DNA from: Imbricaverruca yamaguchii
Lineage: Eukaryota; Arthropoda; Thecostraca; Neoverrucidae
Assembly: GCA_034440575.1 (NCBI GenBank)
Contig: JAOTOL010000971.1
Location: 72,001 to 136,000, forward strand
Length of the DNA stretch: 64,000 bases
Direction of reading: 5' to 3'
The notes under the pieces are model-generated. The model had not been told where the DNA came from. It did not search any database and worked only from the letters and a program-made list of their open reading frames with translations. Below, one piece after another: positions 4,587 through 63,090 of the stretch (the stretch's first letter is position 1; each line of letters begins with the position of its first letter). The position numbers were made by a program, and so were the translations under genes.

Positions 4587-4589
<3 letters not shown>

Positions 4590-11584: not shown

Positions 11585-12292
11585 TTATGTCATTTCATTT
11601 TGGCTATCTGAAAAATGTCTTACGTTCTCCATTGTCGTTCGGACTTCCGTCCGGTAAGCCTGGAAGAAGGTCAGTCGTTCTTCGACGTTGTCGCCTGGAT
11701 GGCGAACGTCTCCCGCGCAGAGAGCGGCGGCGTGCAGACAGACGTGCAGGCCGCAGGACACGCTGTCATCCTGCCGCGGGATGTTATCGGGGACTACCAG
11801 CCGCCATCCCTGCCATGAGTCAGGTCGACGGCCCGCGTTGATCAGCGCTACCACGTCGGCCAGGACCCTGTCCGGTGGACTCCTCGGAGTCAGTGAGTCC
11901 ACTAGCACGATTCGCTTTCTTCTGTAGGCGACGATGAACATGCTCCAGTGGCGGAGTCCTCCATACGCTTGCAGGTTGAAGGGCACCAGCCACAGATCGG
12001 ACTTGTGAATGGCGTACTGAGTTTGCAGCTTGTCGGTCAGCGCTCGTGATAACGCCAACTTCCTCATCACGATCAGGGCGTGCACACTAAACACGATAGT
12101 TTTTGACGTCGCTTTACTTCCCACAGCAAGGAGGTAGGCGTCCATCACGGCATCATCCAGCATGCAACCGGGCTCTAGGGTAGTCATACTTTGGGCGTTC
12201 ACGAGTGTGTTACCCACACGCACAATGCTTTTTTCTTGTACTGGTGGCGTCTTTGTTTGTGGTGGTGGTGTCTCACAGGGACCCGACAGGTG
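11585..12292 (-). CDS. Ulp1/SENP-like (C48) cysteine protease domain of the giant transposon
   Basis: A minus-strand open frame ends with a stop at 11585 and stays open upstream to about 12292, where a candidate acceptor (CGCCCGTAG) lies, so it is probably an internal or last exon; no ATG opens it. Counting residues from the in-frame codon at 12223, it shows the Ulp1-fold order: substrate-binding MLDDAVMDAYLL (21-32), His92 in RHWSMFIV, Asp109 in LVDSL, Gln151 in PRQDDS and Cys157 in SCGLHVCLHA. All four catalytic positions are present, so the enzyme may be active, cleaving SUMO-like or polyprotein substrates. Such domains are often carried by large eukaryotic DNA transposons. It lies just inside the right terminal repeat. 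A host SENP gene is less likely given that position. Confidence 0.8.
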   Translation of the reverse strand, partial: HLSGPCETPPPQTKTPPVQEKSIVRVGNTLVNAQSMTTLEPGCMLDDAVMDAYLLAVGSKATSKTIVFSVHALIVMRKLALSRALTDKLQTQYAIHKSDLWLVPFNLQAYGGLRHWSMFIVAYRRKRIVLVDSLTPRSPPDRVLADVVALINAGRRPDSWQGWRLVVPDNIPRQDDSVSCGLHVCLHAAALCAGDVRHPGDNVEERLTFFQAYRTEVRTTMENVRHFSDSQNEMT

Positions 12293-12367
12293 CTACGGGC
12301 GGCGTGCCTGGTCCGCGACCGGGTAGATGCGCCACCAGCCGGCCGCACGAGGCGAACACAGCCCGGA

Positions 12368-25164: not shown

Positions 25165-25307
25165 CGACATGGAGTAGGCATTTGCGCGGCATCTAGACAT
25201 ATTCTGACGAGCTCAATAGTCTTACTAGAAGGTGTTGCTGCCTGCTTCCTCCGCCGCCTCCATCCTCCCGCGGTCGGGACGGCCGGACGATCGCCGGCCG
25301 CCCCGCC

Positions 25308-26156
25308 ATGACGCGCTGGCGATCTGAGTACCGGCGCTCTCATCGCGGCTGCACGGGCGACCAGCTGCTGGCCACCTGGCAGGCCAACTTCAGCGAGCGC
25401 AACCACCTGCGCGCCGCCATGATGTCGTCGCACTTCGAGCTGGGTTCGCCGGCGGACGCGGCCAGCAGCAGCAACGGCAGCGACGAGGACGGCCTCCCGC
25501 CGACCGCACTGCGACGCCGCCACCTGGAGCTGACGTCGCCCCGGCCGGCCGGGCCCGGCGAGGCGGCGGCCTGGCCGATACCGGGCGGAACGGCGAGAAA
25601 CACGACCGGCCGGCCGAGGTCGGCGGTCCTGCCGGGCTGCGCGATCGACTCCCGACCGACCGGCGATCTGCGACCGTCGAGTACCGCCGCCGGAGCCGTC
25701 GAGACCCGCGTGCCGGACGCCGGCCGGCCGTGCGCGAGCGCCACCGCCGTCAGGTTCGCCGACGAGCCTACTCGGCCGCCGGCGGCGGTGGCGGGAGGCG
25801 CCGACCAGCGCTCGGACACGCGGCAGAAGCCGGCGACGTCCGCGCCGGCCGAGCGGCGACCGCCGTCGCCGTTCGCCGCCTTCGGCCACGCCGAGCGCGG
25901 CCGTGACGTTGGCGGCCAGCGCACGTTCAACGTGACGGCGCCGCCGGCGGAGGTGCACGACTCGGCGCGCGCCGCCGCCGCCGGCTGGCGCGCCCAGCAG
26001 CGGCGGGACTCGGCACTGGGCGACCTGTTGTCGGCCGGCCGGCCGCCGCCGCCGCGACTCACCCGCTGGACCACAGAGTACCAGCGCTGCTACTGCCTGC
26101 CACTGCAGCTGCGCTGCCATACGGCCGCCACTCGAGAAGGCCTGCGGGGCACCTAG
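25308..26156 (+). CDS. 282-aa GC-rich ORF with terminal Trp-x-x-Glu-Tyr motifs; possible microtubule-binding protein
   Basis: A single open frame from an ATG in good context (CCCCGCCATGACG) to TAG at 26154, in a CpG-rich island. A related short motif stands at both ends: TRWRSEYRRSHRG (residues 2-14) and TRWTTEYQRCYC (about 254-265). Short W/S/T-EYQR motifs occur in the MDM1 and MAP6/SAXO microtubule-associated families, so this is a tentative lead only. The middle is rich in Pro, Ala, Arg and Ser and looks disordered. There is no signal peptide or membrane segment. The opposite strand is also open for 328 codons, a common effect in GC-rich DNA; I prefer the plus strand because of the TATA box, start context and motif pair. 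It could be only a first exon of a longer gene. Confidence 0.5.
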   Translation: MTRWRSEYRRSHRGCTGDQLLATWQANFSERNHLRAAMMSSHFELGSPADAASSSNGSDEDGLPPTALRRRHLELTSPRPAGPGEAAAWPIPGGTARNTTGRPRSAVLPGCAIDSRPTGDLRPSSTAAGAVETRVPDAGRPCASATAVRFADEPTRPPAAVAGGADQRSDTRQKPATSAPAERRPPSPFAAFGHAERGRDVGGQRTFNVTAPPAEVHDSARAAAAGWRAQQRRDSALGDLLSAGRPPPPRLTRWTTEYQRCYCLPLQLRCHTAATREGLRGT

Positions 26157-43203: not shown

Positions 43204-43382
43204 ATGCTGGTCTGGTGGCTTCTGGGCGGCCTGGTGGCGTCCGCCTCCGTGCAGCCGGCGAGCTGTGAACTGTTCACCGCCTCCTCGGAGCTGAAGTCGG
43301 CCTTCTCGCTGGAGCGAGATGTCGCCTCCGTGATCAGCAGATTCATCACCCTGACAGAGCAGAAGCTGTCGAAGCTGAGAAA
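43204..43382 (+). CDS. P4H alpha exon 1: signal peptide and N-terminal helix
   Basis: ATG at 43204 opens MLVWWLLGGLVASASVQPAS, a clear signal peptide, followed by CELFTASSELKSAFSLERDV and a helix ending LTEQKLSKLR. The family usually begins its mature chain with such an (E/D)(L/V)(F/Y)T helix. The donor is AGAAA then GTGAGT, phase 2. An acceptor-like TTCCTCAG at 43159-43166 suggests the 5' UTR is spliced from an upstream exon. Confidence 0.88.
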
Positions 43383-43660
43383 GTGAGTGTTGCGAGTGTG
43401 CAGGTGGTGACGTCAATGACGTCGGTGCGGGTAAAATATGAAGAAGAGCAGAGGGCTCCATGTATTATATTCATTCACATCAGCGTTCATGGAGGCTGAT
43501 GCTAAATTTGAGCATACATGGAAGATACATCCACCCATCATCTCACTACCGAATCGAGTGCATTGGCGATGCACAACGAGGCAATACGACAAGGTTGTGG
43601 TGCTGTAAGTATTCCATCGCGCATGATAATTGATTTGTTCTTCTTTCGTTATGTGGTCTA

Positions 43661-43740
<80 letters not shown>

Positions 43741-46700
43741 TGTATATCTATATATAAATGGAGCCCATGTGTCAATTGTTCCGTCCCGACTCCCCGTCTG
43801 CGATCGTTGTCATGCAATCAAATCCGCCTCTACTCGGAACGTGCGCTCGAGCTGCAAGCCCACCTCACCGTGCCGGACGGGCGCGGGTCCATTGTAGGCT
43901 CGAACTATGAGCCCGCCTCATCGTGCCAGAAGGTCGCGTCTCCACCATGAGCTCGAGCTGCGAGCCGGCTTGTCCGTGCCGGACGTGACCACCGTACCAC
44001 CGCCGGCTGAGCCTGCCAGCCGGCCGGGCGTGCCGGGTACCGTTGGCGTGGTGCAGCTGTCGCGGAGCGCAACACGCGCCGGCGCGCCGCCGTCACCGGC
44101 GACGGCCAGCTCGGCGGCGGCACCCCGAGCCACGAGGTGGCGCCGGCTCGCGCCATAACCATGACAACAGTCAGCTCACCGAGCTGTGCGGCGTGCAGCT
44201 GCCGGATTGTCTGCAACGGGACGTGGCCCGAAGATAATTAAGACACGTCGGTGAACCGAGAAGCCGACCGCGCTGCCGCTGAGAACGTTCGGTGGAGTGT
44301 GAGTCCGCAGCTCAGTGCAGTGCAAATGCGCGCCAGCCAAGTGGAACGTCCGCCGATCACGTGCGAGGATAGGACAGATAGTGTCACTGCAACGTGATCT
44401 TAGTGAAGCCGGAATATATAGTACCACTGTTGGACGCAACCGCCTCGTTTGAAGCATTCCGAATCATTTAAATGTGTCGGATACCCCAGGAACATATCCC
44501 AAATCTATAATTTCGGTTGATAATCAGTACCGGTTAATCACCAGTACCTATGGTCCGAGAGATGCACAGACATACTAGCATTAATACAATGTTCTTAGTA
44601 AAACTTCAGCTGCAAAATTGTGTTGGACCTAGTCGGCTTCAGGGTGTCAAATAGTTTCCATCGTTCTCTGTGGATCCACCAGTGTTCAATTCATTCCTGA
44701 AGTATCACCTCGTCAGAACTTCGTCAGAACACACGCAGACCCGCTTCTCGCTTTGTCGCCGCATGCGTCACTTTGGCAGCGGGTCGCATCGAAATGGCTC
44801 TCCAGAGCCGGCACTGGTCTCGCGGCGCCGGCCGGCGGCACGCGCGTCCACCGTCAGATGACGTCACGACCGGCCTCGTCACGGACGAATGCACACAGTC
44901 ACAAAGCCAGCACACAACACAACGGACCGGTCTAAGCGGTGTCGCCATGAAGCGCTGTGAAACCACAGCCTACATGCATCGTAGCAATAATAACCATTTC
45001 TGTTCCGCTTGCGGCACAGCTGAGCATCGAAGCTTTTGGTACCAGCAAATTATCACGCTCATTGATCGCGATTATGCCTGGAAGTCCAGCTGCCAGTGGG
45101 CTTGAAGCCCGACATCACGCCGTGGCACGCATTGGCTGCTCGGGAGCGGCACGCCTTACCGACAATGTTACTATGGGTCGTTCCGTACGAACATTCTGCA
45201 GTGACATTTTGGCGTTCCCCTCAGCATGAGCTCTAGTTTTAGCAGCTCTCGGTGGTTAAGTTTGGTGTTGTGATGCTGGTCGCCACGGCAGTCTTCCGGC
45301 GGTTGCCGTTGCGGTGGCGGTTTGGTGTTAGCATGCTGGCCGTCACCGCAGTCTCCCGACGGCTGCCGTGTGCGGCGGTGCAGTTGGCGTGCGACCGGGC
45401 GCGGCCAGGCGAAGCCGGGTTACCGACCTGTGCGTGGTTGAAGTCACCAGCCGGCAGTTAGGTGGGGGCCTCGGGAATCCTGTAGTTGACACAATTCGGC
45501 CGGGCGCGCCGCCGCCCCGCCTGTGCATCATCGTCCGGCAGCGTCAGCGGCTCGACGGCCTCTGTCGCGAGGATGTCGGGTCGCTGCCAGTCAGTCCAAT
45601 TTGTTGTTGGGTCTCCAGGATACCGACTGTGGTGATGGCGCATGTCACCGGTAGCCACGCCTGGAATGGTATGTGTCGGTCCGTGATTTGCTCATCTGAA
45701 TCGATCGTGAACAAAATGCAGACAATTTTTAGGAAAGCTGGGCGACGCAAGCGCTCTGACAGTTGTCTGTTCGAAATAGTGACAGCTATGCGCAAGAAAG
45801 GGCATCATAGTCACGCTTGCCTTGCGCAATGGTTCATGCACCATCCATGCTCATTCATGTCGAGGCAATGGCCAAATTGCTTCAATTAAGTCACGAAATG
45901 ATTTAAACGACAATATAATCAATTGGCTACTGCTGACGTTCCTTGATATATACTTCCTGATTTATCATTAATCTTGTTATATTATTGCACTCTGAGATCC
46001 ATATTTGGTGCTATCGTAGTCGGTGCTAGACCTCTCAGACAATGCTTCGCGAGTTCAGACCAACTCTCCACCGATGCTATTTATTATCAGCTATCAAACA
46101 CCATCGAGAGGACGCCAACTAACGTGGTTTTGGTATAGGTGTACCTAATAAGCGATCCTTCTGAACTTCATCGGTTCAGGTATAAAACTTGCATTACATT
46201 ACAAATACCAGTGGAGGTGCATTACAAATACCAGTGATACTGCGACAGTCCGGCTCCTGGAGATGGAAGTAGAAGACCAATTGTAGGTAGAAGCCAGTTA
46301 CCGACTTCTTATTGTGACACGTATTCTGCGTTATATTTTGCATGTTGCGTCTGTGTCGACGATGGCATGCTCCATATCATTTTGGCATTCGTCATAACAT
46401 CATTCCGTTGTGCGTCTTTAACATTTGCTCGATTTGGCTTTATAGTCAGAACTCATTAAGGGCCGTTGTCTGTTTCAGCTACCTGCGTGAGTACAGTGAG
46501 GTAGAGAATGATCTGCACCATAACGATGGAGACAACTTCATGGAAAAGATCGCCGGAAACCCGGTGCATGCGTTTCACCTGGCCAAGCGGTTCGCTGTGG
46601 ATTGGCGCAGGATACAGAACACCATGCGCAAGGACCAGTGGTCAGGTGAGGGAATACATGAAGACGAGGAGGCTCCAGGTCTCAGATTAGCGAGTGTCTA

Positions 46701-49700
46701 TATAATAAGTGGGCTGTCAGACTAAAGAATGTGTGTAGTGAGCTCGATGCATTGCAGACACCGGAATGCATACGCTACTACACCAGAACATAGCAGATGC
46801 GTGGATTGTGACGTGGATTGTGATTGTGAACATAACACATGCAGGTGCGTGGATTGTGACGTCGGAAAATGTTCGTGAAGACTTAAGAGTTTCTGGCCAT
46901 GATAAAGAATGACGATACAACTCAGCCGCGAAGTGAGAGAAAGTCTGCTTATAGAAGTGTCATGATAGTGGTAGGGAACATATGTAGCGAGGTAGCGGAC
47001 CATGTCATATCTTTTCTTTACACCAGTTGACGGCGGCTGACTTCAGAAAGCCGAGATGGCGATCCATTGTTCTGCATTGTCACGAAGCCGGAACCGGGAA
47101 AACAACACCACATAAAGTAGGCAGTTTTACGGTAAAAGCCAAAAACAAAACCGATCTCGTCTTCAGCATGCAACGAAAAAACACCCGCGACGTGTTCTGC
47201 GTTGTCCGTAGAACACAGCCCGCGCGTCAAACGCCTGCTGCGAGCCGCGGGCGGTCGGTCGCGGTAGGCAGGGGCGGCGATTGGCGGTGGGCGGCGGGCG
47301 GTCCGATCCACACGTGGGCCGCCCCACGTGTCAGTCGTGAGTCAAACTCCGCTTGCAGTGGTGCTCGGACTGAGCCGAGGAGATCGCCGCCCGGCGGCAG
47401 GCGGCTCGGCGCAGTCAGACATCGGTGGATGCGGCGGTCGATGACTCTGTTATTGTGACGTGTTATTGTGGCGTCACTGGAACGGCCCATTTGTTCTGCA
47501 CTCACGCGCGTGACGCATTGCGCGCCACGGCGCGCTACCTCGGAGTTCATCATGCTTTCGATCATGACACCTTCGTGTATATTGAACGTTGGAAATCAAT
47601 TTCAACGATAATCTCGTTTGATTACATTGCTAGTAAAAACAGGTGAATTAGCTAAAACGACAAGATACATTGCTCCATCTACTGAAGAGCGGACTTAAAG
47701 GCCGACATTTAGCGGAAGCTCGAGATGGCCGGAGGAATCTTGTTCCAAGAGGCAGCGGCTCGGAATCGAACGCTCCTTTGTGTGCGTGCTAGCCAGCATC
47801 TCGGCACGTCTACTGCGCCGACCAGTTGGGTAACGCACCACGACACTTCGGAGCCGGCTCGGAACATGTCACGCAGAGTTTGAGAGTCAGAACCGCTGAA
47901 GAGCACCTCAAATACTTGGGTGATATCCCGCCTTGCGTACGTATATTTGCCAACCGTATGTTTTCGCTGGCGTACAGTTGCTATGCGTACATTTGTACTT
48001 TAGGCTTCAAATGTGCCGATGTGTGTGCGAGCCTAACCTAAACCAGCGAACTTTAGCCAACCTAGCCTCTATTATCAGGCGCATCAATTTTGAAAATCCA
48101 GCTTAACACGCGTGCCGGAGGCCCTCTCACATAATCTGTTCAGATTATGTCATAATCTGTTTAGGTCTGTTTAAATTGTATTATAATTTTCAGTAGTTTT
48201 GAAAGTCTTGGGGAGGGGCGGATGGAGATTCGGCCCCAAAACCTTGGAAACTACTGAAACTAGAAGCACAAAATCTTCAGGGTAGATTAAGGCTGTAGTT
48301 AACTCGTTTTCGTATACAGGTATTAAGCCTAGGCCAATGTTTTCAGGGTCAAATGTGTCGAGATCTTCCGCCATACCGCGCCGGTGAAACCTTTGTGACG
48401 TTAAAAGACCGGATGCACCACCGCAGTTCTTGTCTTTACCAACGGATTTTTTTTCAGTGGAGCTATGTATCAATTTTTAGCAACGCTATAAATTTCATTG
48501 TAATACCCCCACCCGGTTATGAGACATCGTCGAAAAGCCAGAGATATGGAGGATTTCCCCCTCAGTGCGCGCGTTAGCCGACATTACGTGGTCAGACATG
48601 TTAACTAATTATCACCACAGGCCTTAACGAATAATTGCGGGCGGGGGCGAGGCCCGAGCGAGTATGCTCCCGTGCAGCTCGGCAATAAGTTGGTCCGAGT
48701 AACCCGTCGCGTCGCGCCGCCGAACCATCAAGCTTTCGAAATCATGGTGACTTTTTCGTTACACCGTTTCATATCCTAACATTTTCACTCAGTCTTCAAT
48801 TTCTTCGTTTAATTCTGATGGATCTAAAATTGATTAAATCGATATAATAAATTTGATCTGTCCACACGCTCGGATGACAGACCTGCTGCGAAGCAACATA
48901 AGTTCAAATGCGTCGACCTTATCTTTCCTTCTTCCTTCCGAAGCCTTCCGAGAGAACCCAAAGCGAATTATTCCTCTGGCGGTGGCTAGGTTTGCGTCAT
49001 GCGTCATTGTTGCGGCCAGCGGAAATTAGCGCTCCCGCACAGAAAGACATTGATTTATCATGAAGCTGATTTTGCGACATGAAGCGTTACGCGAACATTA
49101 CAAGATCGCATTGTACAATATGCACGGATCCTCGCTCTTCCAGGCATAATATTTGTATAATTGGGTCTTAAATCCAGACGGTGCTTTTAGGTCAAATACG
49201 GAAATGTTTGTGATACATAAGACATTGTCCCAACGTATGACATCTGATTCCTTTTCGAGTTCTCCTCGCTTGTTATAGTAGTAACTTCACCAGATCATAG
49301 CTAGCATAGTGTACCCAGCTTTCCTCTTTATAATGAAAGCCAATTCACGCAATTCTATATGCTATTAATCAGACTGCATTTTGGGCGCAAACACAGATAC
49401 TAGACTAAATTTCGTCTTATGGTCGTGGGCTCGATCTCCAGAAGCTACAGTCTGTTCACTACTAATAATCTCAACCAGTTCCCATTTCTGCTGAAACTTT
49501 CTCTGAACTGCAATGGTTCATTTGTACTGTAGTCGGCATTGACAGCAAATTAAGCATCACATCGCATGTAGCGATAGTCTTATTTTGGCACGGGGAGGCA
49601 TTCTTTATTCTTTGTTCATCATTTCTTTTAGTCTTATGGACCGATTTCTCGTGAGAAACTGAACAGTAGTCACGAACTAAGAGCATTAAGTTCGACTTCT

Positions 49701-52700
49701 CTTCATCAGAGCTTTACCATATCCCGCTTGGTCGTCAACGGACACTTGTACCAGTGACCTCGTATAACCTTTTGTGATATTTTGTCAACGTTGGACCGGT
49801 CTTGAATACCATTGTACGTTATGATCGGATTCGGCGTTGAAAATTAACTCACACTTAATCTTGAAGCTGAAAGAAGGCCACATAAATTCACCCTAGGCCA
49901 ACCCTAGGCCAACTAGGTCAGTCAAGGTTGAGACTGGGGGGGGGGTATCGTTCGAGGGTACGAGTGTCTCCTTTGAGGCTGAGACCTCAAGCACTTTCGA
50001 AGTAAACAGACATGGAGTGGAACCTAAATGTCACAGGCACGTCACCAGCCGTCCACGCATGTGCATCTCAGCCTACGCAAATCCGGCCACCACATCTCTC
50101 CGGTCGTGCTGGGCGTGTGGCGGTCGGCACCCTGCCTTCTGTCCAGATACATTTGTAACTTCGGTGTCACTGTCAGCCCTGCATCTTTGGTTGGTTATTT
50201 AGACCCAGGGCGTATTTACCGCGTTGGTCATACCGCGCACATTGCCCTACATCTTTACTGCCAGTCCAACGTTAGGCACTCCAGCTCCGCCAGTGAGTGC
50301 TGTACGTTCTCACAGCCGAGCTCACCATACTCGCGCTCCGCAGACGTGTCGAAGCAGATCGAGTCGCTGAAGCTGGGCACGCGGCTCCCGAAGGAGTCCG
50401 ACATGCTGGGCGTGGCCAAGGCTCTGGTGCGTCTGCACGACACTTACAACATCGACCTGGACCGACTGGCCAGCGGCGACATGCTGGGAGTGCAGACCTC
50501 CGCCAGTGAGTGTCCAACACTCATCGGAGTGTTACAGGCTGGGAGTGCAGACCTCCATCAGTGAGTGTCCAACACCCATCAGAGTGTTACAGGCTGGGGG
50601 TGCAGACCTCCGCCAGTGAGTGTCCAACACCCATCAGAGAGTGTTCCATGCTAGGGGTGCAGACCTCCGCCAGTGAGTGTCCAGACACTCATCGGAGAGT
50701 GTTACAGGCTGGGGGTGCAGACCCTCCGCCAGTGAGTGTTCAACACCCATCAGAGAGTGTTCCTTGCTAGGGGTGCAGACCTCCGCCAGTGAGTGTTCAA
50801 CACCCATCAGAGAGTGTTCCATGCTAGGGGTGCAGACCTCCGCCAGTGAGTGCCAGACACTTATCGGAGAGTTTTACAGGCTGGGAGTGCCGACCTCCGC
50901 CAGTGAGTGCCAGACACTCATCGGAGAGTTTTACGGGCTGGGGTGCAGACCTCCACCAGTGAGTGTCCAACACCCATCAGAGTGTTACAGGCTGGGGGTG
51001 CAGACCTCCGCCAGTGAGTGTCCAACACTCATCAGAGTGTTACATGCTGGGAGTGCAGACCTCCATCAGTGAGTGTCCAACACTCATCAGAGTGTTACAG
51101 GCTGGGAGTGCAGACCTCCGCCAGTGAGTGTCCAACACTCATCAGAGTGTTACAGGCTGGGAGTGCAGACCTCCATCAGTGAGTGTCCAACACCCATCAG
51201 AGTGTTACAGGCTGGGGGTGGCCGCCAGTGAGTGTCCAACACCCATCAGAGTGTTACAGGCTGGGCAACCCGCAGGTCCAACACCCATCAGAGAGTGTTC
51301 TTGTGGGCCGCCAGTACACCCTAGAGAGTGTTTGCTAGGGGTGCAGACCGCCAGTGAGTGTTCAACACCCATCAGAGAGTGTTCCATGCTAGGGGGTGCA
51401 GACCTCCCCAGTAGTGCCAGACACTTATCGGAGTTTTACAGGCTGGGGACCTCGCCAGTGAGTGCCAGACACTCATCGGAGAGTGTTACAGGCTGGGGTG
51501 CAGACCTCCATCAGTGAGTGTCCAACGCCCATCAGAGTGTTACAGGCTGGGGGTGCAGACCTCCGCCAGTGAGTGACCGGCACCTATCAGAGTGTTACAG
51601 TCTGGGGGGGGGGGGGCAGACCTCCGCTAGTGAGTGTCCAACACTCATCGGAGAGTGTCCCATACTCGGGGTAAAGGGTGGAGATCCTGGCCAATAAGTG
51701 CCATACATCCATCAGAGTGTTCTATGCTGGGTGTTCAGACCTGGGCCATTAAGTGCCAGGAACTCATGAGATAGTGTTCTAGGCTAGCAATAAAAAAGAA
51801 TATAGTGTTTTTGAGTCAGTAAAGAAAGACGCATTGAACTGACGTTTAGACAAATGGAACTGCTATATGATCAACATGGTCGATGCACCCTAAAGCCACA
51901 AATGGAACTGCAACATGTCAAAATGTTGATTTTTAACATTTTACAGTTTTAATGTTCGGTTAAAAGAGCTTGCCACAATGAATAGCCCACATATTTAAAC
52001 GACGTTTGATGTAAATATTTCATGGTTAAGTTCACTGCTTTGCTTAAATTTGTGGTATTAGCCCAAATAAGCTAATCATGGTGAGACATGTCAACAACAA
52101 CAAAATTCCGAAATATCCAAGAAACCTTTTTGTCAGGTCTGATGAGAAAAGTAATTCCTGACAGTTCATATAAATATCTACTGAATAATGTGTAACATCT
52201 TCTAAAATGTTTTCGAGGTGACCTCACTCAACCGGCTCAACCAGCGATCTTAGATGATCTGACTCCTATATTTATCCCTTCAACACATGCAAATTGATGT
52301 CGGGAAAGGTGCTGGAAATTTGTGCGCGCTTGCTTGCGCCGTTATTCGCTATCGTGAAAGAATCACAGGGCAAGAAGGGGATTTCCTCCTCCCCTCTCTC
52401 CCATCGGGGATAGTGGTGACTCTTGATAGTGTGCGGCATTTTGCCACCTTCGCCAGTGAGGGGGGGTGCGACCCATGGCGTTTCCAAACGAAACGTGCTA
52501 TAGAGTCGAAACGAAAACAGGTGTGTGGGGTAGGACGATATCTTGCGATTGACACCTGATTTTGTATCAGGGGTAATAGGTGGCACTCCAGGTCAGGTCG
52601 AAAGACAAAATTTCGCAAGAATCGGGACGTTTAAGGTCAATCCAAACGTTTCTTAAACTGCAGTATATATGGACTTTTGGTTAGCATCAAGGTGTTCATC

Positions 52701-55700
52701 GATACTTTGCGGATATAGGTACATTTCAAGCTACATTTAAGGCATAGGTCACGGGTCAGGCTAGGCCAAGATTTGTCTTTGCATCTGAAAACTTAATAGG
52801 AAGTTGGCAAAACTTACTGCTTGCACCCACTCCGGGTAAAAATTGACGGCAAAATCGTGTTTAAGACTTAAAAGAACCCTAGATGTCCTGTCAAGCTACA
52901 AAAGGTCATCCGAGGCTAACATATGTCAATGATCTTGCATAGGCTTTGAATAGTACAGGAATAGTGTTCGAATATCATTTCAGTCAACCTTCGACGTAAC
53001 CCGCACAAAATGTGTCGCTTTAAGCCACCACGTTATGTCAGGATGACATGATCCTGTATTTCGTTCCACATTTTTCGGAAGTGTTCCCCTTTATGCCAGC
53101 ATACCTTATGAGACAAGTCAAACTTTTCTACAAAAAGGTACTAACAATACGTCCCAGAAGGTACAGTAAATTTCCATGGGTTCGGCCGAGTTGTTCAGAT
53201 GTTATCCACGAAAAACCTTAGCAGGATGGAGAACATCCACTGGCAAAAATTAGAAAATGCCACTAGGAAAAGTAAGGAGATAGCAAATGATTTAAACAAG
53301 GCGTTTAGATGCGACTCGTTTTCTTCCACAATTGTGCAACAGCGGGCTTTTTTATTGCTGGAAGCTGGTGATTGTTGGACGAAAAGCCAAATAATAAAAA
53401 CCCATTGGACTCAGGGAGTTTAATGAAAGAACAATGAACGCGGTTTCTTTCATCGTCGGGTAGTAACGTTGAGCTCTCCAGCAGGAAAAGCAGAGGACAA
53501 TTTTCCAATTCTGGTTGACGTTAGGACGGGTTTCCAACCGTGGCTGAGGTTGTTGTTCTCTATTTCGACTATGTCAGCTTACTGACATCTCGTTCTTCTC
53601 CAGCTCTGACAGCCCAAGACTGTATGTACATGGGCAAACACTCGCTCAAGCAGCGCATGTACTTCCGCGCCGTCGAGTGGTTCGACACTGCACTGAAGCT
53701 GGCCGAGCGCGAACAGAACGGCACGGTGGCACGTGAAGACATCATACGCTTCTCAGCCAGGGCCAGAATCGCCGTACGTAACGCCATAGCTCAGCGAACA
53801 GCAGTTCAGATGCATAGAACTGCTCAGTGTTTTGTCCCTTATTGGTCTGGCCTCAAGAGTTAATCTCCGCATTGCTAGGGCAGCCTGTGGAGGAAATGAA
53901 AACGCATCTCTGAGCACCTTTGGATTAATAACGGGAAAAATGGTATTGGTCTTCATAAAACATTGCTTTGTTCTTAGCTAGATTGGCATCGCCAACGACG
54001 CCGATGCATTCTGAATGGACCAAATACCATTGTCAAGAAAATGCAAGAAAATACCATTTCCTTTGTATTGAAGCTCAAAAGTTCTACACATATTGGTGCA
54101 AGTCTTCCTTACAATTGCACGTTTATGTGGACCGTGTCATAAATACTTCGAAGGATGTAAAATATTGGTTAGAGCTGACTCCCCAGATCGGGTACTGTTA
54201 TTACACTGTGTTCACAGCATCCTTCGAAAGTAACGAATTGTAGGGCTACCTTCTTCTGAATGCAGTCCAGACATTACATCATTTACGATATATGAATTTT
54301 ACCTACTGCATCGTGGCAGGCATAGCTTCACCCTTACATGGACCACAGCTGAGATGAAAAGAAAAAACTGCGATCAGCTATATTTTATACCTAATACCTT
54401 TACCTATAGGAATATAATTGGTTGCTAACTAAACCCGTGCTAGGAGTGGAATTGACTCTCGTCCAGGGTTGGCATCGTTGGCGCCATTTTGCAACAAATC
54501 GCTGCTTGGAATTGCTGAATGAATTGAATGAATGAAAAGCTAATCCGGCTATGGCATAATGAAAGCCACAGGACATAGTCGCATCGAAGAGTACGAACAT
54601 CAAAGTGTGTCATTTTTCCCGGGTTCGCCGCCTGAAAATATGTCAATCACAGGGAAGTGTCTCGTCAATTATTCTGTTACCATCAATCAGAACGTGAGCC
54701 TCAATAATCACTGCATCCCCAAAGTATCCCATGTACGTTACAAAGTGCACATATTTAGGATGTTGATCGTTACTTTTTCCCATACCACATGACAATGAAA
54801 TCGATGCGCCCTAAAGCGCAAGGAGCTAACTAACTTCGCTTTATGTAGTATCTCTCTTCGAATCCCGAGAAAAGTGTCCATGATGCACACACCGATTGGA
54901 TTTCTCTGATACCAGTGGGACGGTTAACCAAACACTGACGGACGACGTTCGATGACGTCACTATCGTTTCAGCACGACGAGGTGGCGCTGACGCCGAACC
55001 ACACCAACGTGTACGTGCTGAGCGAGCCCCTGAACGGCCGCTCGCCGGCGGAAGTTCGGGGCAGCGATTTGGAGGCGGGCCGCGTTCGGTTCCAGCTGGG
55101 CACGAACATCTCCACCGAGCAGGACTTCCTCAACTACAAGGCGCTCTGTCGTGGCGAGCAGCTGCTGGTGGGTCACGTGTCGGTCGGCCCGTCAGGCGCG
55201 TGGCATCCGCGGTCTGAGGGGGTCATAGGACGGGGTAGCAGACTATTGCCGAATATTGGTTAATGAATGAGTAAAGCCCTGCTCCCCAATGGTTCAGAAT
55301 CTGGTGTAGAAACAATAGAAACATTCATCACGGGAGGTGCGAGAAAATGGATATTTGGCACCGCTATCAGCATCAAATCGTCTCGCTTTTTCGATTCGCT
55401 AATATCGTCGTTATGATGAGATGCCATTAGTGTGTCTCGTGTCTCCAGGGTCAGTATTTGCTTCAGTAAGGTGTAGACAGCAATAGGGTGAAGGATTGTA
55501 AGCAGCATAAGTAAAGAAAGCATCCTAAAACTAGTAAAGGCATGATGAAAATGATTGTGAGTAACGGTCGCAAGTTTCGTCTGTCCGATGATTGCTCGTT
55601 CGCTATGCCTGGAAGTTGGAGAGTCCATACCTAACCTGCGGTTAGGTATGGACGTTTGGACGTTTTTCCATCACGGGTGTCTGGAGACTTGAAGGCCCGG

Positions 55701-58700
55701 ATTTGGAAAAGACATGCGTCGGTGTATACTCTATTGGTGTTGAAACAGTTGCACAAGTTGTCGCCGTATTGCATAATTATCAGCCCGGGCAATGCAAGGG
55801 CATTAGCGGATGCTGGAATTTGAGAACCATTTACCGTGCAAGCAAGGAAAACCCTATAAAATCACAACAACGCTCTGCTAACTGCCTACAACTGATACTG
55901 TAACACGTATGCGATCCGACTGGTACTGTAGCACCCGGAATTGATTTGAATCGCAGCGGAGCAGATAGATGACTGCCGCACTGTCTTCTGTCGCGGGTGT
56001 GCTCGACGACTGAGGAAGTCCGACGATCTGGCATCAGCATCTGGCGACCCACAGTCGTGGTCGAGCCATCACCACGTCCGGTGATGGCAAATAATCCGTG
56101 CTGCGAGCAGCGGGAACGAATGCGGCTGAGAAAAGCCCCCTTTTTGGAGCACTAACGCATCACTGATTATGGTTGAGTTTTATCACGTTGCTCAGGTTTT
56201 GTGTTAAGCTCTGTACTGCAACTGCATACCTAGTTGTTCATCTCGTGTTAGCTATTCATTTATTTCGCTAATAAGTCACGCACGAATTATTTTGCTAGCA
56301 TCCCGTGCGTCATGGTGAAGCCCGAAGATGCAGCGCGACCTTAAGAGCGTTTTACACAACTGGTCCTGTATTGCAGCTCCCAAAGGAAACATCCAAACTG
56401 AAGTGCTGGAATTCAGATCGGGGCTTTGCTTATTTCAAGCTGAGGCCAATCAAGGTGGAGCAAAAGCACATCGACCCGGACCTGTATATGTTCCACGACG
56501 TTATAAGCGACGAGGAAATAGAATTCATCAAAGAAACTGCAAACACCGAGGTTAGTATTCGTGTTCTGGAGTCATGCAACTAAATGTAGCCGAGTGCGGA
56601 CATGTATGCATACTTACATGTGTAAGCACGTATTTTTGCAGTTGGTCACGCAATGGAGCAGGAGGAAGACTCCATTCCATCGTGGCAGGATGTCGACCTG
56701 GGGCAGGGACGGGAGACCCTGTCGAATCAAACGCTGCACGTTTACGGCAGGATGTCGACCTGGGAGCTGATGCAGCTCTCACACGTTCCAGTTTCTATTG
56801 CCGTTTACCATACGTCACCAAGGAGGCTCCGTGTGAACTGCTTATTGCACCATATCATTCTTTGCGAACCATTGTCATTGTGATGCCATTCGCGTGTTTC
56901 GCTCTGTTCTGCAGGCTGATTTCTAAGGAGGGCGTACCACATGTTGAAAGTTCGTTATCCATACATAAAAAACTTATGCCATATCTCCTTCCATTTTGCA
57001 CTGTTGTTACTTACTGCTTGTTTTATCGGATATTTATCGGATGTCGGGATTGCAGCGTTTTGGTAGCACTCAGCCGGCATCATCAGTCGATTTGTCGATG
57101 TATTTAGGTCAAGGTTAGATATCATATTGTGCACATTGTCGCCTATAAATTCGGAGATGCTGCTTTTGATGTATACAGCAACTGTATTTATTATTTCGTG
57201 ATGTGCACCGGATACCTCAGAGATTAACGGGTATGAGGTGCAGCTTGCAAACCCGCTACGCCAGCCAAATGAACGCGCACTTCCTTCGCTAGAAGAGATA
57301 TCTCTTCATTTGTATCCGTTCGCATCACGCCTAGACTAGCTGCAAGCAGCGTGCTCCCTAAAGTGTAAGCATTGAATGTTGAACATGGAGCATTTCGTAT
57401 GCTGCCCTTGTTCACATTGTACACGCGTAACGTTTACAACATATATACAAGATTTATGTCATATATACTACCCATTAAGTAAGCACAGCACATATATTTA
57501 CGCTTCATTTTAATGTCGAAACGCTTACCGTTTCTTGTTCTTCAAAACGACCAGAACATTTTTGGTCACTGTACTTTAGCTATGGCTTAAGCAGACGAGC
57601 TTCTCAACCACCCAGTGCATTGATGTATCTTACTTAGTGTTTGAGGATCAATACATCGCTGGCTACATCGCTGGCTACATCGCTGGTTTCACAGCGATGT
57701 ACTCTTTATTCATGGGAATGTGCAAGGAAGGTGGATTTCCACCTTCTTCCGTTAGGTCTCATGGCCTTATCCACCACCAGTTACCGGTCTGGCAATGGTA
57801 ACCCTAGCACTGCTCGACCTCACGCGTTCATCAGCTGTCGCGCTCTCTGGCGATCGGAGGCAGTACCGGCGGCCGTGGCCGTGCCTGACCCGCCCTGACC
57901 TGACCTGACCTGACCGTCAGCTGTCGCGCTCTCTGGTAACCGGAGGCAGCACCGGCGGCCGTGGCCGTGCCTGACCCGACCTGACCTGACCTGACCGCCA
58001 ACTGTCGCGCTCTCTGGTGATCGGAGGCAGTACCGGCGGCCGTGGCCGTGCCTGACCCGCCCTGACCTGACCTGACCTGACCAGACCGCCAACTGTCGCG
58101 CTCTCTGGTGATCGGAGGCAGTACCGGCGGCCGTGGCCGTGCCTGACCCGCCCTGACCTGACCTGACCTGACCGTCAGCTGTCGCGCTCTGGTGATCGGA
58201 GGCAGTACCGGCGGCAGTTGCCGTGCCTGACCCGCCCTGACCTGACCTGACCTGACCTGACCGTCAGCTGTCGCGCTCTCTGGTGATCGGAGGCAGCACC
58301 GGCGGCCGTTGCCGTGCCTGACCCGCCCTGACCTGACCTGACCTGACCGTCAGCTGTCGCGCTCTCTGGTGATCGGAGGCATGGCCGGCGGCCGTGGCGT
58401 GCCTGACCCGCCCTAGCCTGCCCGCCCTGATCTCGTGACCTGACCTGACCGTCAGCTGTCGCGCTCTCTGGTGATCGGAGGCAGTACCTGCGGCCATGCC
58501 CGTGCCCGCCCTGATCTCGTGATGACCCGACCGTCAGCTGTCGCGCTCTCTGGTGATCGGAGGCATGGCCGGCGGCCGTGGCCGTGCCTGACCCGCCCTG
58601 ACCTGACCTGACCTGACCTGACCGTCAGCTGTCGCGCTCTCTGGTGATCGGAGGCAGTACCTGCGGCCATGCCCGTGCCCGCCCTGATCTCGTGATGACC

Positions 58701-59477
58701 TGACCGTCAGCTGTCGCGCTCTCTGGTGATCGGAGGCATGGCCGGCGGCCGTGGCCGTGCCTGACCCGCCCTGACCTGACCTGACCTGACCTGACCGTCA
58801 GCTGTCGCGCTCTCTGGTGATCGGAGGCAGTACCTGCGGCCATGCCCGTGCCCGCCCTGATCTCGTGATGACCTGACCGTCAGCTGTCGCGCTCTCTGGT
58901 GATCGGAGGCAGTACCTGCGGCCATGCCCGTGCCCGCCCTGATCTCGTGATGACCTGACCGTCAGCTGTCGCGCTCTCTGGTGATCGGAGGCATGGCCGG
59001 CGGCCGTGGCCGTGCCTGACCCGCCCTGACCTGACCTGACCTGACCTGACCGTCAGCTGTCGCGCTCTCTGGTGATCGGAGGCATGGCCGGCGACAAGGT
59101 GAGCGACACGCGCATCTCCAAGACCGCCTGGCTGGACGACAGGCGGCACGCGACCATCGCGGCTCTGTCGCGCCGGGTGGCCGCCATCACGGCTCTGAAC
59201 GTCGACGTTCGGCGCGGCGAGGCCGAGATGTTCCAGGTCAGTGCGTGATCAGTATCCCGCCGGACAGTGCAGTCGCATCAACTGATGATTACAGCTATGC
59301 AGGGGCGGCGATGGTAATTAGGTGCAGTCATGTGCAAGTGCCAGGGTGTAAGAGTTATACCAACATAATAATTGGAGCGTTGACCATGCAGTATTATATT
59401 TGTTCACATATTCTTGATTTAGACTGGCATCACCTTATCATGAATGCGAAATGGCGACGTGCCAGGTTTAATATATC

Positions 59478-59512
<35 letters not shown>

Positions 59513-62500
59513 TACAAAAATGTGAATATGTATGCAGATGTGGGCACTGCTAAGTCGTTGTGCATGATTTAGAATATGTGCAGACCTGTATTTCGAGACA
59601 TTTTGCGGCAACGTGATTGTGATTGTGTTCGGCGCTTGCAGCATCATCTTCGTTGTAATAGCCATAACACCGCTGACTAGGTCAACAACCATATCCGTTC
59701 GACTAATGCCTGCCCGGATAAATGCAAGCGGCTGCATGATCATGGCTTCACAGCGATGCTTCCAGGAGCGCGGGCGTGGGAAAATGGCAGCGGTACACAC
59801 CGGGGCATACCGAACCGCACTGGCACGGGCTCTGTATACCCATTAGCCTGTGTCGATAATTTTCACAGCAGTGTTATCAAAAACGGCTACCGTTTTTATT
59901 TTGCCTTGATATGTGCCTAACAATTTGGCATACAAATTAGATCGCTGGGCAATTGGAATATTTTGGCATATTGGACCACTTCCTTTTTGCGAAAATACGG
60001 AAAGCGCATCAGCGCCGATATTTGTGGTCTGGCGCTGATCAAATTTTTTTACTTCCGCGACCCCTAACTCGAAAAATTTTCGATCGATTTTCATTTTCCT
60101 TCCTTTAAACAACGCGCCGGCCATTTTGAAGCAGGTACACAAACAATGCCGTGTATCGGCCGGTAAAAACTTAAAAGTTCTCTACGAAAACCCGGAGGTG
60201 TGGGCGGATTTCGCCCCCCCTCCAGGGCGCGTGTTAACAAGTAAACATCATGATACAGCCGCGGTTTCTGCACTTAGTCATTTGGAGACTTCAGCATCAC
60301 TCGCTGGGCGTAGACACATAGGCAAAGCTTCATATTTTTCGCTGTTTGAACTACATAGCAGCATGATTGAAGGAGGCTGCTTTGTACGCATGTGTATCAC
60401 GTACCAAATACCTCCCTATTTGTTTGTTTATTGGTTGGTTCACGACACACTTTATGCACATTCACGGCTAATGGCGCCGCCCACACTGTTTCGCCGGTGG
60501 GCCGGATGGAAACTGTGTCGAACCCGGGACCTTTGGTACCCATAGCCCGACACCTTAACCACTGGCCATCCCGCCCCTCCCTATTTGTTGCATGTTGAGA
60601 CATTCAGATAGACTTTCCACATGACGTTCAGACGAAAATCAGATAAGTTGGTGATAAAAATGATTGAAATTCGCCGTGATCACCATGGGACCATCGATGT
60701 CTATTTTTTTCCCCAAAGGTACACATGTCAGACATCAATCAATGAACATTGGTATATTTAAGGCAAACATCGCGGGAAGGTGCGGGGCACAACTGACTGA
60801 CGGCATAGAGCACCCAGTTCTATCTTTCATGAAACGCACAGTCATTTTAGCATATTCTCCACGTAACTCTTAGTTGTTAGCACGGGCAAATGCTGCCGGT
60901 GCAAGTAGCAAGCCCGGATGTAGCCGTCCCCCTCTCCTTCCCGTACACGGTTTTTGTAGCTAGCGACACCTGTTCACGCATCGTTCAACTGACTGACCGT
61001 GCACGGGAAACTGCGGAACTGACATTGGCATGTCCACATAGCCATCAAGTTCGAAGTTTGGCGTGTGGCACGTGAGGGCCAGTTCGAAGGCCCCGTCCCA
61101 GGGTATCAACTCCTGCAGGCTCTCTGTGGTCTCATTTAGTCTCGGAGTTCTCCTGGGACGAACGCTGTGTCTCCACGCTCATTTTTGCCTCGGATTGCAC
61201 CTGATACGTTCAACAGCGAACTGGCGCTCTGCTCTGTCACCGCTACAGAGAAATGTCTGGAGCACCATTTCGCTGTGAGCATACCAGGCACTGGAGTGGA
61301 GGTACGGCATCACGATGCTCACGACTTCCCCATGCTGCAGCCGAGTGAGCTGCAGCCGGCGCAGCACATGCCGCGGCCCATCTAGCTAGTTGTGCTGCAC
61401 TTTCGCGCGAAACCACATCGGATAGTAAACCCTCCACAATGGATTTAACGATACGCCGAAGGTTTTTCCATGCAGCGTCTCCCAGGCCATGATCTGATAC
61501 GTACACTGTACGTGTCAGATCACGGTCTATGTAGCGCATATCATGCTGCTATGTATTTCAAACAGCGAATAAATATGAAGCTTCGTGTATATTTCTATGC
61601 CCAGTGAGTGATGATGAAGTCTTCAAATGTGTAGAAGTGCAGAAACCGCGGCTGTATCATGATTTTTACTTGTTTAAACCTCAGAGTTCCTTGTAGGCCC
61701 CAAAATGGACATTTGCTGGTGTATTAGAAGACATAAGATAGCCGATATTTTCTAACTGTCGATTTTTCGACCATACTGCGTTGTTTCAGTCGACTCAGCT
61801 CATCGAGACGATCAAAAAGAGATACTATTTGGCCCACTTATCTGGATTGTTTCTCATAGCTAATAAGGTGCCGACTGCCGAAAACAGTCTTTTGCTCAAA
61901 CGCATTTTGAGAAAAATATGCCGATTGCCCGGCGATCTAATTTTTATGCCAAATTCTTGGGCACATATAAAGGCGAAATAAAAACAGTAGCCGTTTTTGA
62001 TGACACCACTTTGACAATTCTCGACACAGGCTAATAATCATCCACACTGGCGCCGGCTCTGTACACTCAGTCACACTGGCGCCGGCTCTGTATACCCAGC
62101 AGCCAGCTGATCGCAATTCCGTTTACCTGCTGATCGAGATGCGACTGCGTGAGGAAGTCAGTGGACGTTGCACGATATGTGCAGTATGTAGCTTGCGCCG
62201 GATAAGGTCAGTAATACACCGTCACTGAATGGGCACATTGCGATGCAAAGAGAGCAATACAATCGAAGTCATGACGAGGATTCATTGCTGGTGATAATGC
62301 AGCGTGAGATAGCATTGGATAGCATAAATGGTATCTAATGTAAATATTCCCCCCCACCGCACGCGCCCAGTAACTCGTTCATAACAAACATCATTAAGCA
62401 TGGGTGAAGAGTTTATAAAACATTCACATCTGGATTTAGATGCTGAAAACACACTTACTCGTTCTTCAATGCCACTAGTTCTATCACCTGCACGTGTACG

Positions 62501-63090
62501 CCAAGCAGTTAGACCAGCTTCCTCCCGGAGCAACACCTCGACTTACAAAGCGCGCTATCACCGGTAGCCGCCAACTGTCGCGACGGCTCGCTGTCGCCAG
62601 ATTCGCCGGCGGCGTTCGGCCGCCACAGCTCTCCGTCAGAGGGTTCGGCGCGCGCTGTGACGCACAGATACCTACTCACTGCACTCCGTCTATGTCCTGC
62701 CTCGCTCTCACAGAGACACACTCACGGTATTCCATCTATGCCCTGCCCTACCCTGGCAGGACAAGCACATGGTACTCCGTTTATACCCTGCCACACTCTC
62801 GCAGAGACAAGCCCACGGTACTTCGTTCATGCACTGCCCCACCCTCCGCAGAGACAAGCCCGTGACACTCTGTTTATGCCCTCCCCGCCCTCGCAGAGAC
62901 AAGCTCACAGCACTCTGTCTGCACCCTGCCAAGCACCACGAACTCCTCGCGCCCCCATCTGCTACCGGAGCTCCCATCTGCTGCCTGAGCGGCCGGTCGC
63001 CGACTGTTGCCCATGTTGTTGCAGATGTCGCGCTACGCCAGCGGCGGCCATTACATGCTGCACTTTGATACCAAATACGCGTTTCGTAGG
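43204..63090 (+). CDS. Prolyl 4-hydroxylase alpha subunit gene, 5' eight exons (3' end outside window)
   Basis: Eight exons (43204-43382, 46479-46645, 50344-50505, 53604-53773, 54973-55167, 56377-56550, 59057-59236, 63025-63090) with GT...AG introns join to 431 codons with no stop. The product is a collagen prolyl 4-hydroxylase alpha subunit, a lumenal ER enzyme that pairs with protein disulfide isomerase and uses iron, 2-oxoglutarate, oxygen and ascorbate. Visible parts: signal peptide (about 1-20), N-terminal dimerisation helices (about 22-150), TPR-like substrate-binding domain (about 170-260), and the start of the 2OG-Fe(II) oxygenase domain with the first two iron ligands in HFD (422-424). 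Vertebrate family members are about 520-550 residues, so about 100 residues, including the distal His and the 2OG-binding Lys, lie to the right. Exon 3 and exon 7 border arrays of copied splice sites. Which paralogue it is cannot be said. Confidence 0.93.
43383..46478. other. P4H alpha intron 1
   Basis: It holds a (TA)n-(GA)n microsatellite at 43662-43741 and three loose ~65-bp GC-rich repeats (GCTCGARCT...GTGCCGGACG) at about 43845-43985. A near-duplicate ~60-bp pair (TTTGGTGTT...TGCTGGYCGYCACSGCAGTC) lies at 45260-45370, and an 18-bp duplication (GCATTACAAATACCAGTG) at 46190-46235. ORFs of up to 173 codons in GC-rich parts show no family motif. Confidence 0.6.
43662..43741. repeat. TA/GA compound microsatellite
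   Basis: (AT)n of about 30 units followed by (GA)n, in intron 1. Confidence 0.96.
46479..46645 (+). CDS. P4H alpha exon 2: N-terminal domain
   Basis: Acceptor TCTGTTTCAG, donor TCAG then GTGAGG. The joined codon AA+C gives Asn. The peptide NYLREYSEVEND, then NFMEKIAGNPVHAFHLAKRF and DWRRIQNTM, matches the family's conserved NPV(H/N)A(F/Y).L.KR...DW block. Ends in phase 1. Confidence 0.93.
46646..50343. other. P4H alpha intron 2
   Basis: It holds a possible LINE relic at 47709-47906, a short-unit degenerate repeat (GCGTACGTATATTTGC-like) at 47930-47995 and a GC-rich patch at 47220-47420. At 50284-50300 a lone CTCCGCCAGTGAGTG copy, matching the end of exon 3 plus its donor, stands upstream of exon 3. 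Otherwise nothing is recognised. Confidence 0.55.
47709..47906 (-). pseudogene. Possible reverse-transcriptase C-terminal relic
   Basis: The minus-strand frame ends RSVRFRAAASWNKIPPAISS, resembling the closing F..A...WN.LP..I block of many non-LTR retrotransposon proteins. It is too short for a firm call. The same bases contain a weak tRNA-like box B (GTTCGATTCC), so a SINE head is the alternative. Confidence 0.3.
50344..50505 (+). CDS. P4H alpha exon 3: end of N-terminal domain
   Basis: Acceptor GCGCTCCGCAG; G+AC gives Asp. The peptide has DVSKQIESLKLGTRLPKESD, MLGVAKALVRLHDTYNIDLD and RLASGDMLGVQTSA, matching the family's P...D..GA..AL.RLQ.TY.L block before the substrate-binding domain. 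The donor is TCCGCCA then GTGAGTG, phase 1. The donor and the preceding ~20 bases are copied many times downstream. Use of the first downstream copy would add codons in frame and then meet a stop at 50562-50564. Confidence 0.93.
50484..51660 (+). repeat. Minisatellite copying exon 3 end and its splice donor 18 times
   Basis: The unit (about 52-61 bp) contains CTGGGAGTGCAGACCTCCGC, then CAGTGAGTG and CAACACTCATCAGAGTGTTA. The first 22 bases are the coding end of exon 3 and GTGAGTG is its donor. After the true donor at 50506, I count 18 further copies with an intact GTGAGTG. Copies near 51260 and 51410 are damaged, and two very degenerate units follow to about 51780. Units come in subtypes (AGGCTGGGAGTG; CATGCTAGGGGTG; CCAGACAC), so the array grew in blocks. 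Confidence 0.93.
51790..53603. other. P4H alpha intron 3, remainder
   Basis: AT-leaning sequence with no recognised element. A few AGGTCA motifs occur around 52580-52640 and 52750. Confidence 0.45.
53604..53773 (+). CDS. P4H alpha exon 4: peptide-substrate-binding domain
   Basis: Acceptor TTCTTCTCCAG; A+CT gives Thr. The peptide reads LTAQDCMYMGKHSLKQRMYF, RAVEWFDTALKLAEREQNGT and REDIIRFSARARIA. It matches the family's L(T/S)..DC...G..AY....Y..A..W...AL TPR segment. NGT is a possible N-glycosylation site. The donor is ATCGCC then GTACGT, phase 0. Confidence 0.93.
53774..54972. other. P4H alpha intron 4
   Basis: No repeat or RNA recognised. Exon 4 ends RARIA and exon 5 starts HDEVALTPNH. 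In relatives there are usually several more residues of TPR helix between these points, so a very short exon could be hidden here; I could not find one. Confidence 0.4.
54973..55167 (+). CDS. P4H alpha exon 5: end of TPR region and linker
   Basis: Acceptor TATCGTTTCAG, donor CAGCTGCTG then GTGGGT, both phase 0. The peptide has HDEVALTPNHTNVYVLSEPL, then TEQDFLNYKALCRGEQLL. The YKALCRGE block equals the conserved Y..LCRGE before the catalytic domain. Third positions are strongly GC-rich. NHT and NIS are possible N-glycosylation sites. Confidence 0.9.
55168..56376. other. P4H alpha intron 5
   Basis: Contains a perfect 14-bp hairpin at 55623-55653 and nothing else I recognise. Confidence 0.45.
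55623..55653. repeat. 14-bp perfect hairpin, 3-base loop
   Basis: GTCCATACCTAACC (55623-55636) pairs perfectly with 55640-55653 around a TGC loop. Confidence 0.9.
56377..56550 (+). CDS. P4H alpha exon 6: start of catalytic domain
   Basis: Acceptor CCTGTATTGCAG, donor ACCGAG then GTTAGT, phase 0 at both ends. The peptide has LKCWNSDRGFAYFKLRPIKV, then DPDLYMFHDVISDEEIEFIK. The F.L.P.K.E and L..FHD.IS..EI..(I/V)K blocks are diagnostic of the family. Confidence 0.94.
56551..57825. other. P4H alpha intron 6, 5' part
   Basis: Contains a duplicated GGCAGGATGTCGACCTGGG (about 56683 and 56750) and a 15-bp triplicate CTACATCGCTGGCTA-like run at 57650-57690. Otherwise unrecognised. Confidence 0.5.
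57826..59056 (+). repeat. Minisatellite copying exon 7 splice acceptor and exon start 14 times
   Basis: The unit (about 82-100 bp) has CTGACC repeats, then CGTCAG (acceptor), CTGTCGCGCTCTCTGGTGAT and CGGAGGCA (first ~28 bases of exon 7), then GTGGCCGTGCCTGACCCGCC. There are 14 copies before the true exon; 12 keep CAG before CTG, two (near 57998 and 58088) read CCAACTG. From 58380 on, copies whose next bases are ATGGCCGGCGG (as in the real exon, ATGGCCGGCGA) alternate with copies reading GTACCTGCGG, a higher-order pattern. Each CTGAC also fits a branch-point consensus. Confidence 0.93.
59057..59236 (+). CDS. P4H alpha exon 7: catalytic domain
   Basis: Acceptor CTGACCGTCAG, donor TTCCAG then GTCAGT, phase 0. 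The peptide starts LSRSLVIGGMAGDKVSDTRI, then SKTAWLDD and RRVAAITALNVDVRRGEAEM. It matches the family's LSR..V....... R.SK.AWL......V......R....TGL.......E block. The acceptor is the last of fifteen near-identical ones. Splicing to an upstream copy of the GTACC subtype would read about 17 codons and then a stop. Confidence 0.93.
59476..59509. repeat. TA microsatellite
   Basis: About 16 TA units in intron 7. Confidence 0.95.
59980..60237 (-). mobile_element. TTAA-ended transposon, truncated minus-strand copy
   Basis: On the minus strand it starts TTAACACGCGCCCTGGAGGG (60237 downward), then CGAAATCCGCCC, CGGCCGATACAC, TTAGGGGTCGCGGAAGT and CGCTTTCCGTATTTTCGC. This matches 30931-31230. It is 5'-complete and 3'-truncated, and sits at a TTAAAC-like site in the arm of the larger inverted-repeat element. 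Confidence 0.75.
60455..60585 (-). mobile_element. tRNA-Leu/Ser-like SINE head
   Basis: The minus strand reads GGGATGGCCAGTGGTTAAGG (box A region at 60559-60568), TACCAAAGGTCCC and GGTTCGACAC (box B, 60515-60524), followed by a GC-rich body. It is the same family as 22790-22890. Confidence 0.7.
62671..62940 (+). repeat. ~56-bp tandem repeat, about five copies, upstream of exon 8
   Basis: The unit contains CAGAGACAAGCYCACGGYAC, TYYGTTTATGCCCTGCC and CACCCTCG. It lies about 85 bases before the exon 8 acceptor. Unlike the arrays at exons 3 and 7, it shows no exon 8 sequence. Confidence 0.85.
63025..63090 (+). CDS. P4H alpha exon 8: iron-binding HxD motif
   Basis: Acceptor CATGTTGTTGCAG, donor CGTAGG then GTGAGT, phase 0; 22 codons read MSRYASGGHYMLHFDTKYAF then RR. 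Family members have Y..GG.Y..H(F/Y)D here; His422 and Asp424 would be two of the three iron ligands. The gene continues past the window; no further exon is visible before 64000. Confidence 0.93.

Follow-up and report, generated by a model that had tools for sequence, protein, structure and literature searches.

Exon-edge minisatellites at an acceptor and a donor of a prolyl 4-hydroxylase alpha subunit gene of the barnacle Imbricaverruca yamaguchii

Structure of the P4HA-like gene and content of the window

The DNA analyzed (the window, 64,000 nucleotides), which corresponds to positions 72001-136000 of scaffold C738, carries a P4HA-like gene on the forward strand, which lies at 43204..63090 within the window and was identified by full-length homology, including the catalytic region, as an intact prolyl 4-hydroxylase alpha subunit. 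Based on a human sequence used as bait, together with splice consensus and reading phase, eight exons were placed inside the window. Exons 1 to 3 are at 43204-43382, 46479-46645 and 50344-50505, and exons 4 and 5 at 53604-53773 and 54973-55167. Exon 6 (56377..56550, phase 0) joins exon 7 (59057..59236), which has 180 nt or 60 codons and the donor CAG/GTCAGT, and exon 8 is at 63025-63090. The last exon lies beyond the window at 68036-68272 (coordinates continued from the window), also on the forward strand, and the reading frame runs uninterrupted up to the stop at 68272, giving 532 or 530 residues depending on the choice of exon 8.

The nearest proteins were crustacean P4HA, with 42% identity to those of Daphnia pulex and Portunus over 96-97% of a 431-residue query and 74% identity to Portunus for the last exon. 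A PDB search with exons 6 and 7 joined gave prolyl 4-hydroxylase subunit alpha-2 (E = 2e-11), and a Pfam search with the exon 6-7 fragment returned no relevant match. The true splice sites of exons 3 and 7 are fixed because protein homology runs across the junctions. Exon 7 opens with LSRSLV directly after exon 6, relatives having LARSMV, LSRAMV and similar sequences, and its start coincides in the protein alignment with a conserved L-S/A-R-S/A stretch, which places the true acceptor AG at 59055..59056. The exon 3/4 junction likewise aligns with relatives free of gaps (GVQTSATLTAQDC vs GRQTRAELTAQDC). The gene structure given in the earlier note was upheld.

Two versions of exon 8 were observed, the one at 63025-63090 and a second at C738:138211-138282 (66211-66282 continued). 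Both are in phase 0 and both carry the catalytic histidine-x-aspartate region (HYMLHFD, HYNYHED); they appear mutually exclusive, because the frame stays open with either one. A strong donor-like sequence, AAG/GTGAGC, is located at 59099 inside exon 7, 42 bases past the exon start, and its use would shorten the exon.

Elsewhere in the window, inverted arrays of one 492-bp satellite were found at 2544-4587 and 12367-15158 (97-98% identical), and between them, on the minus strand, a frame for an Ulp1-type peptidase (11585-12292); together they look like a mobile element. A frame at 25197-26153 matched the Pfam family CCSAP (centriole, cilia and spindle-associated) with E = 2.4e-12.

Arrays at the exon 7 acceptor and the exon 3 donor

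An array of 14 decoy units ending with the true exon start was delimited by TRF at 57831..59093 on the forward strand, directly before and into exon 7. The earlier note had described 14 tandem decoy acceptors, each with a copy of the exon start, and the TRF result together with 15 cores (CTGTCGCGCTCT; 14 decoys and the true exon at 59057) confirmed it. The decoy cores start at 57835, 57921, 58002, 58093, 58179, 58268, 58354, 58456, 58538, 58629, 58711, 58802, 58884 and 58966, with a spacing of 81-102 bp, close to the 82-100 bp first given. TRF scores reached 1682 and some units were 100% identical; the array is far beyond chance.

Each unit consists of an intron end, mostly a CTGACC tract with CGTCAG, followed by 12-37 bases matching the start of exon 7 and a spacer. 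CGTCAG was present in 11 decoys, and the leftmost decoy (57835) reads ATCAG, sits in unique intron sequence and has no CTGAC tract. The AG was intact in 12 of the 14 decoy acceptors, as first counted. The two exceptions, at 58002 and 58093, are preceded by GCCAA and have AA in place of AG at 58000..58001 and 58091-58092, respectively. The motif CTGAC was concentrated in the array, with 54 of its 120 forward-strand occurrences in the window falling within 57826-59056.

Units 7, 9, 11 and 14 and the true exon are of the type GGCATGGCC, and units 8, 10, 12 and 13 of the type GGCAGTACCTGC. The alternation of two subtypes claimed before holds for units 7-14, except that units 12 and 13, of one type, are neighbours; units 1-6 belong to a third type (GGCAGTACCGG or GGCAGCACCGG). 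Within a type, units 7-14 show 99-100% identity, unit 7 excepted. Units 1-6, which include both lost acceptors, are read as the older part of the array because they are more varied. The earlier suggestion of stepwise amplification was upheld.

Over 58614..58829 the decoy whose exon part starts at 58802 is identical to the true acceptor, a stretch of 216 bases between -188 and +28, and the decoy at 58629 matches it exactly from -100 to +28. If 59057 is the site used, the deciding information would therefore have to lie beyond +28 or upstream of -188. Splicing to any of the 14 decoys would lead to a stop within 17-51 codons, so that the early stop previously ascribed to decoys of a GTACC subtype is present, but in every subtype.

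The mirror image of this array, with opposite polarity and in the same gene, was found at the end of exon 3 (TRF, 50479..51658, forward strand) and had escaped the earlier note. Its start lies inside exon 3, of which it covers the last 27 bases, and it comprises about 21 units of ~55 bp, each containing the exon end and CCA/GTGAGT or close variants, and two degenerate units extend it to about 51790. GTGAGT occurred in 19 of the 23 units listed, namely in the true donor at 50506 and in 18 decoys, and each of these decoys leads to a stop.

Further arrays were observed towards the end of the gene. A 27-bp tandem array at C738:140257-140437 (68257-68437 continued) starts in the last P4HA codons and runs across the stop codon. 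Intron 9 holds an array of acceptor-like units, CTGACC...CCCCACAG/CTGAG (C738:139373-139671, 67373-67671 continued), and an inverted partial copy of this array, 84% identical and accompanied by part of exon 10, is located at 71794-70977. The pentamer CCTGA recurs as a repeat nested within two of the gene's arrays, at 57884-59051 in the window and at 67437-67608 (continued); its reverse complement, TCAGG, is a telomere repeat of some beetles.

Recurrence at kinase exons and placement of the arrays

The 767-Mb genome was searched with the protein-kinase family, and of 136 matches 30 loci were taken with 1.5-kb flanks. One kinase of this genome is 82% identical to its counterpart in Pollicipes pollicipes and 76% to that in Amphibalanus, which places the animal among the barnacles. 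Arrays seeded at a donor edge were present in four of the 30 loci: L038 (CDK7; 57 bp x 26.7), L043 (EGFR, where the array belongs to a neighbouring exon that ends in MRLPSYTQQ), L045 (35 bp x 22.7) and L050 (two arrays of 46 bp next to each other).

A second sample, drawn from the same list, not in strict order, comprised 48 short kinase exons together with flanks of 250 bp, and the sequences were unseen beforehand except for L063, which lies inside L045. Splice sites of the first 40 were placed by hand, except for 2 of the 40 donors and 4 of the 40 acceptors. According to TRF the donor was within an array in 6 of 38 exons and the acceptor in 1 of 36 (the known L063 plus L073, L081, L084, L087, L091 and L092). 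Among the further eight exons, L096 has an acceptor array of three 110-bp copies with 68 exon bases in common, and L099 has three copies at its donor, an array missed by TRF. Exon-edge arrays thus occurred at 9 of the 48 short kinase exons (8 of 47 if L063 is set aside). This frequency has a wide error, since the batches differ (1 of 20, L063 only; 6 of 20; 2 of 8), and kinases may be atypical. The weakest case is L073, with 3 exon bases in common with its units. Left out of the count were L086, which resembles a decayed exon-edge array, and L059, L065, L067, L080 and L090, the arrays of which end just before or at the acceptor; CTGAC branch-point-like motifs were noted in the units of L065, L067 and L090.

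The positions at which arrays start are the clearest sign that they are seeded at exon edges. Between the donor and +120 the coverage by arrays stays level, which means that each of the six merged arrays beginning within -60..+120 of one of the 38 placed donors begins in the exon. Under uniform starts over this interval the probability is (1/3)^6 = 0.0014, or 0.004 for the five arrays without L063; like the other exon-edge tests, this one was made post hoc, with the pattern already in view. In the 30 kinase loci, shallow exon-edge overlaps numbered 3 against 0.73 expected (P = 0.029), while overlaps of any depth showed no excess (3 observed, 5.5 expected, P = 0.98), the EGFR exon being outside the exons counted. 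The strict donor motif was not enriched in array units overall (5 of 44 arrays vs a shuffled mean of 3.6). In the P4HA gene, 3 of 10 arrays with a period of at least 15 overlapped an exon edge, which under random placement has P = 0.03, or P = 0.039 when whole exons may not be covered; the test is not independent, because both focal arrays are among the three. The last three exon starts used in it were 1-8 nt off, which was judged not to affect the count of three.

Origin of the arrays and choice among splice sites

The exon 7 and exon 3 arrays are mirages, that is, minisatellites of a duplicated exon-intron boundary. This reading is based on the units, the retained splice signals, the mirror array at the exon 3 donor and the recurrence at other exons. 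Mirages have been described in amphioxus (globins BflGb6 and BflGb9, Adh3, PGBD5), where, in the parts of the two reports available to us (PMC3087553, PMC3902484), they appear as minisatellite-like duplications of 5' or 3' intron-exon boundaries with units of 10-160 bp, AG or GT kept in many units but not in all, variable copy number and length instability, RT-PCR having suggested regular splicing. The P4HA arrays have units of minisatellite size (15 of 81-102 bp in the one and 21 of ~55 bp in the other), these span a homology-fixed exon-intron boundary, most of them keep AG or GT, and, as in amphioxus, donor and acceptor boundaries are both affected; every mirage feature that can be read from one sequence was found in both. 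They differ from the amphioxus arrays in their arthropod host, in having 15 and about 21 units as against the 6 and 3 given in those same parts for two BflGb6 haplotypes, in the occurrence of both polarities in one gene, and in the frequency at the sampled kinase exons.

The most probable explanation, to which we assign a probability of roughly 0.7, is that the arrays are driven by mutation, largely neutral and tolerated in introns, and that exon definition selects the site next to the exon. A tandem duplication of the exon 7 boundary (intron 3' end and exon start) would have seeded a minisatellite, which then would have grown stepwise on the intron side. Slippage or unequal exchange, starting from exon edges, would account for such growth. 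Under exon definition, the site taken would be the one that makes the exon shortest when paired with the splice site at its other end. The true site stands first among the copies of the donor array and last among those of the acceptor array, and in either position would give the shortest exon. Whenever a decoy is used, the transcript would meet a stop codon and would probably be degraded.

A regulatory role of the decoys, the idea raised in the earlier note, is in our opinion improbable; the decoys would compete with the true acceptor and, by way of unproductive splicing, adjust the amount of functional P4HA, perhaps in line with copy number. In favour of it are the 12 intact decoy acceptors and the 18 intact decoy donors, the stop behind every decoy of the gene, and a human minisatellite said to provide several splice donors in a title in the reference list of PMC2572611. 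However, two acceptors have lost their AG, exons of unrelated genes have such arrays too, and the amphioxus mirages, the nearest counterparts in print, are reported in the parts of the papers available (PMC3087553, PMC3902484) to leave splicing undisturbed.

The conservation of the decoy donors points to no clear constraint. Across 11 donor arrays GT was intact in 122 of 130 decoy copies, a count biased upward because copies were recognised by their likeness in 16 bases around the site (L073 yielded none). Recent growth of the arrays explains this retention, and a function would do so as well. In a substitution test covering four long donor arrays, 14 of 932 sites were substituted within the donor 9-mer vs 128 of 4083 elsewhere (Fisher P = 0.006), but when a 9-base window was slid around the unit a value as low was obtained in 7% of cases. 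Conservation of decoy donors was accordingly rejected as evidence of function, P rising to 0.07, and under this control no clear selection for or against the donors was detected in the four arrays. Weak constraint is compatible with both the raw contrast and the slide control.

The way in which decoys were thought to act, a spliceosome scanning from one branch point past many candidate acceptors, is also unlikely. Scanning from a branch point takes the first AG met, and 10 of the 12 decoys that keep the AG (the exceptions being 57835 and 58538) have a CTGAC of their own within 25 bases before it, so that scanning from such a branch point reaches that unit's own AG first.

It is about equally doubtful that the array lengthened or created an intron by growing within exon 7, in the stretch that separates an ancestral acceptor at 57835 from the remainder of the exon, with the duplicated AGs making the intron. 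The leftmost copy, which follows unique intron sequence and has an AG but no CTGAC tract, looks as an ancestral acceptor would, and a model of intron gain from mirages has been proposed for the amphioxus globins (PMC3087553, in the part available). Outward copying of an exon edge would, however, yield the same picture. An assembly artefact, with long-read or polishing errors enlarging short duplications, is very improbable in spite of the 5,000 N in the 190,791-base scaffold, since the units show ordered subtypes, private substitutions and lost AGs, and period and sequence differ between the arrays of different loci.

Two human systems may be compared. The minisatellite of the gene 6-16 (IFI6), judged by its title in PMC2572611, resembles the P4HA arrays in that tandem units each supply a splice donor; its repeated donors serve an interferon-induced transcript, while the P4HA decoys are predicted sites only. 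Internal tandem repeats at exon-intron boundaries in human segmental duplications can alter splicing and form new introns; in the part of that report available (PMC2812944) they average four 30-bp units in recently duplicated paralogues, whereas the barnacle arrays are longer and occur in P4HA and kinase genes. Among the papers listed in literature searches, judged by title and beginning of the abstract, there was no study of exon-edge minisatellites in arthropods, and repeat-related terms gave no match in the available part of the Pollicipes genome paper (PMC8917513). Mirages as such are already known; what is new is the phylum, the length of the arrays, the presence of both polarities within a single gene, and how often arrays turned up among the exons sampled.

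The occurrence of mirages far outside the cephalochordates, and in number within the sample, suggests a little-noticed mutational process at exon edges. Tentatively, and at rather low odds, exon-edge minisatellites might form a genome-wide class touching about a tenth to a third of coding exons and arising from mutation seeded at splice junctions; exon definition alone might then pick among dozens of locally identical sites, and the length of its array may determine how much productive mRNA each gene yields. The arrays bear on the proposal that introns are lengthened or born from such repeats. How a choice is made among identical splice sites is a long-standing question, for which artificial minigenes are the usual test. 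The barnacle arrays, the largest of which have up to about 29 decoys, offer a natural test of this choice among near-identical copies in collagen-processing and signalling genes, and transcripts across them would reveal how strict exon definition is and what fraction is lost to decoys.
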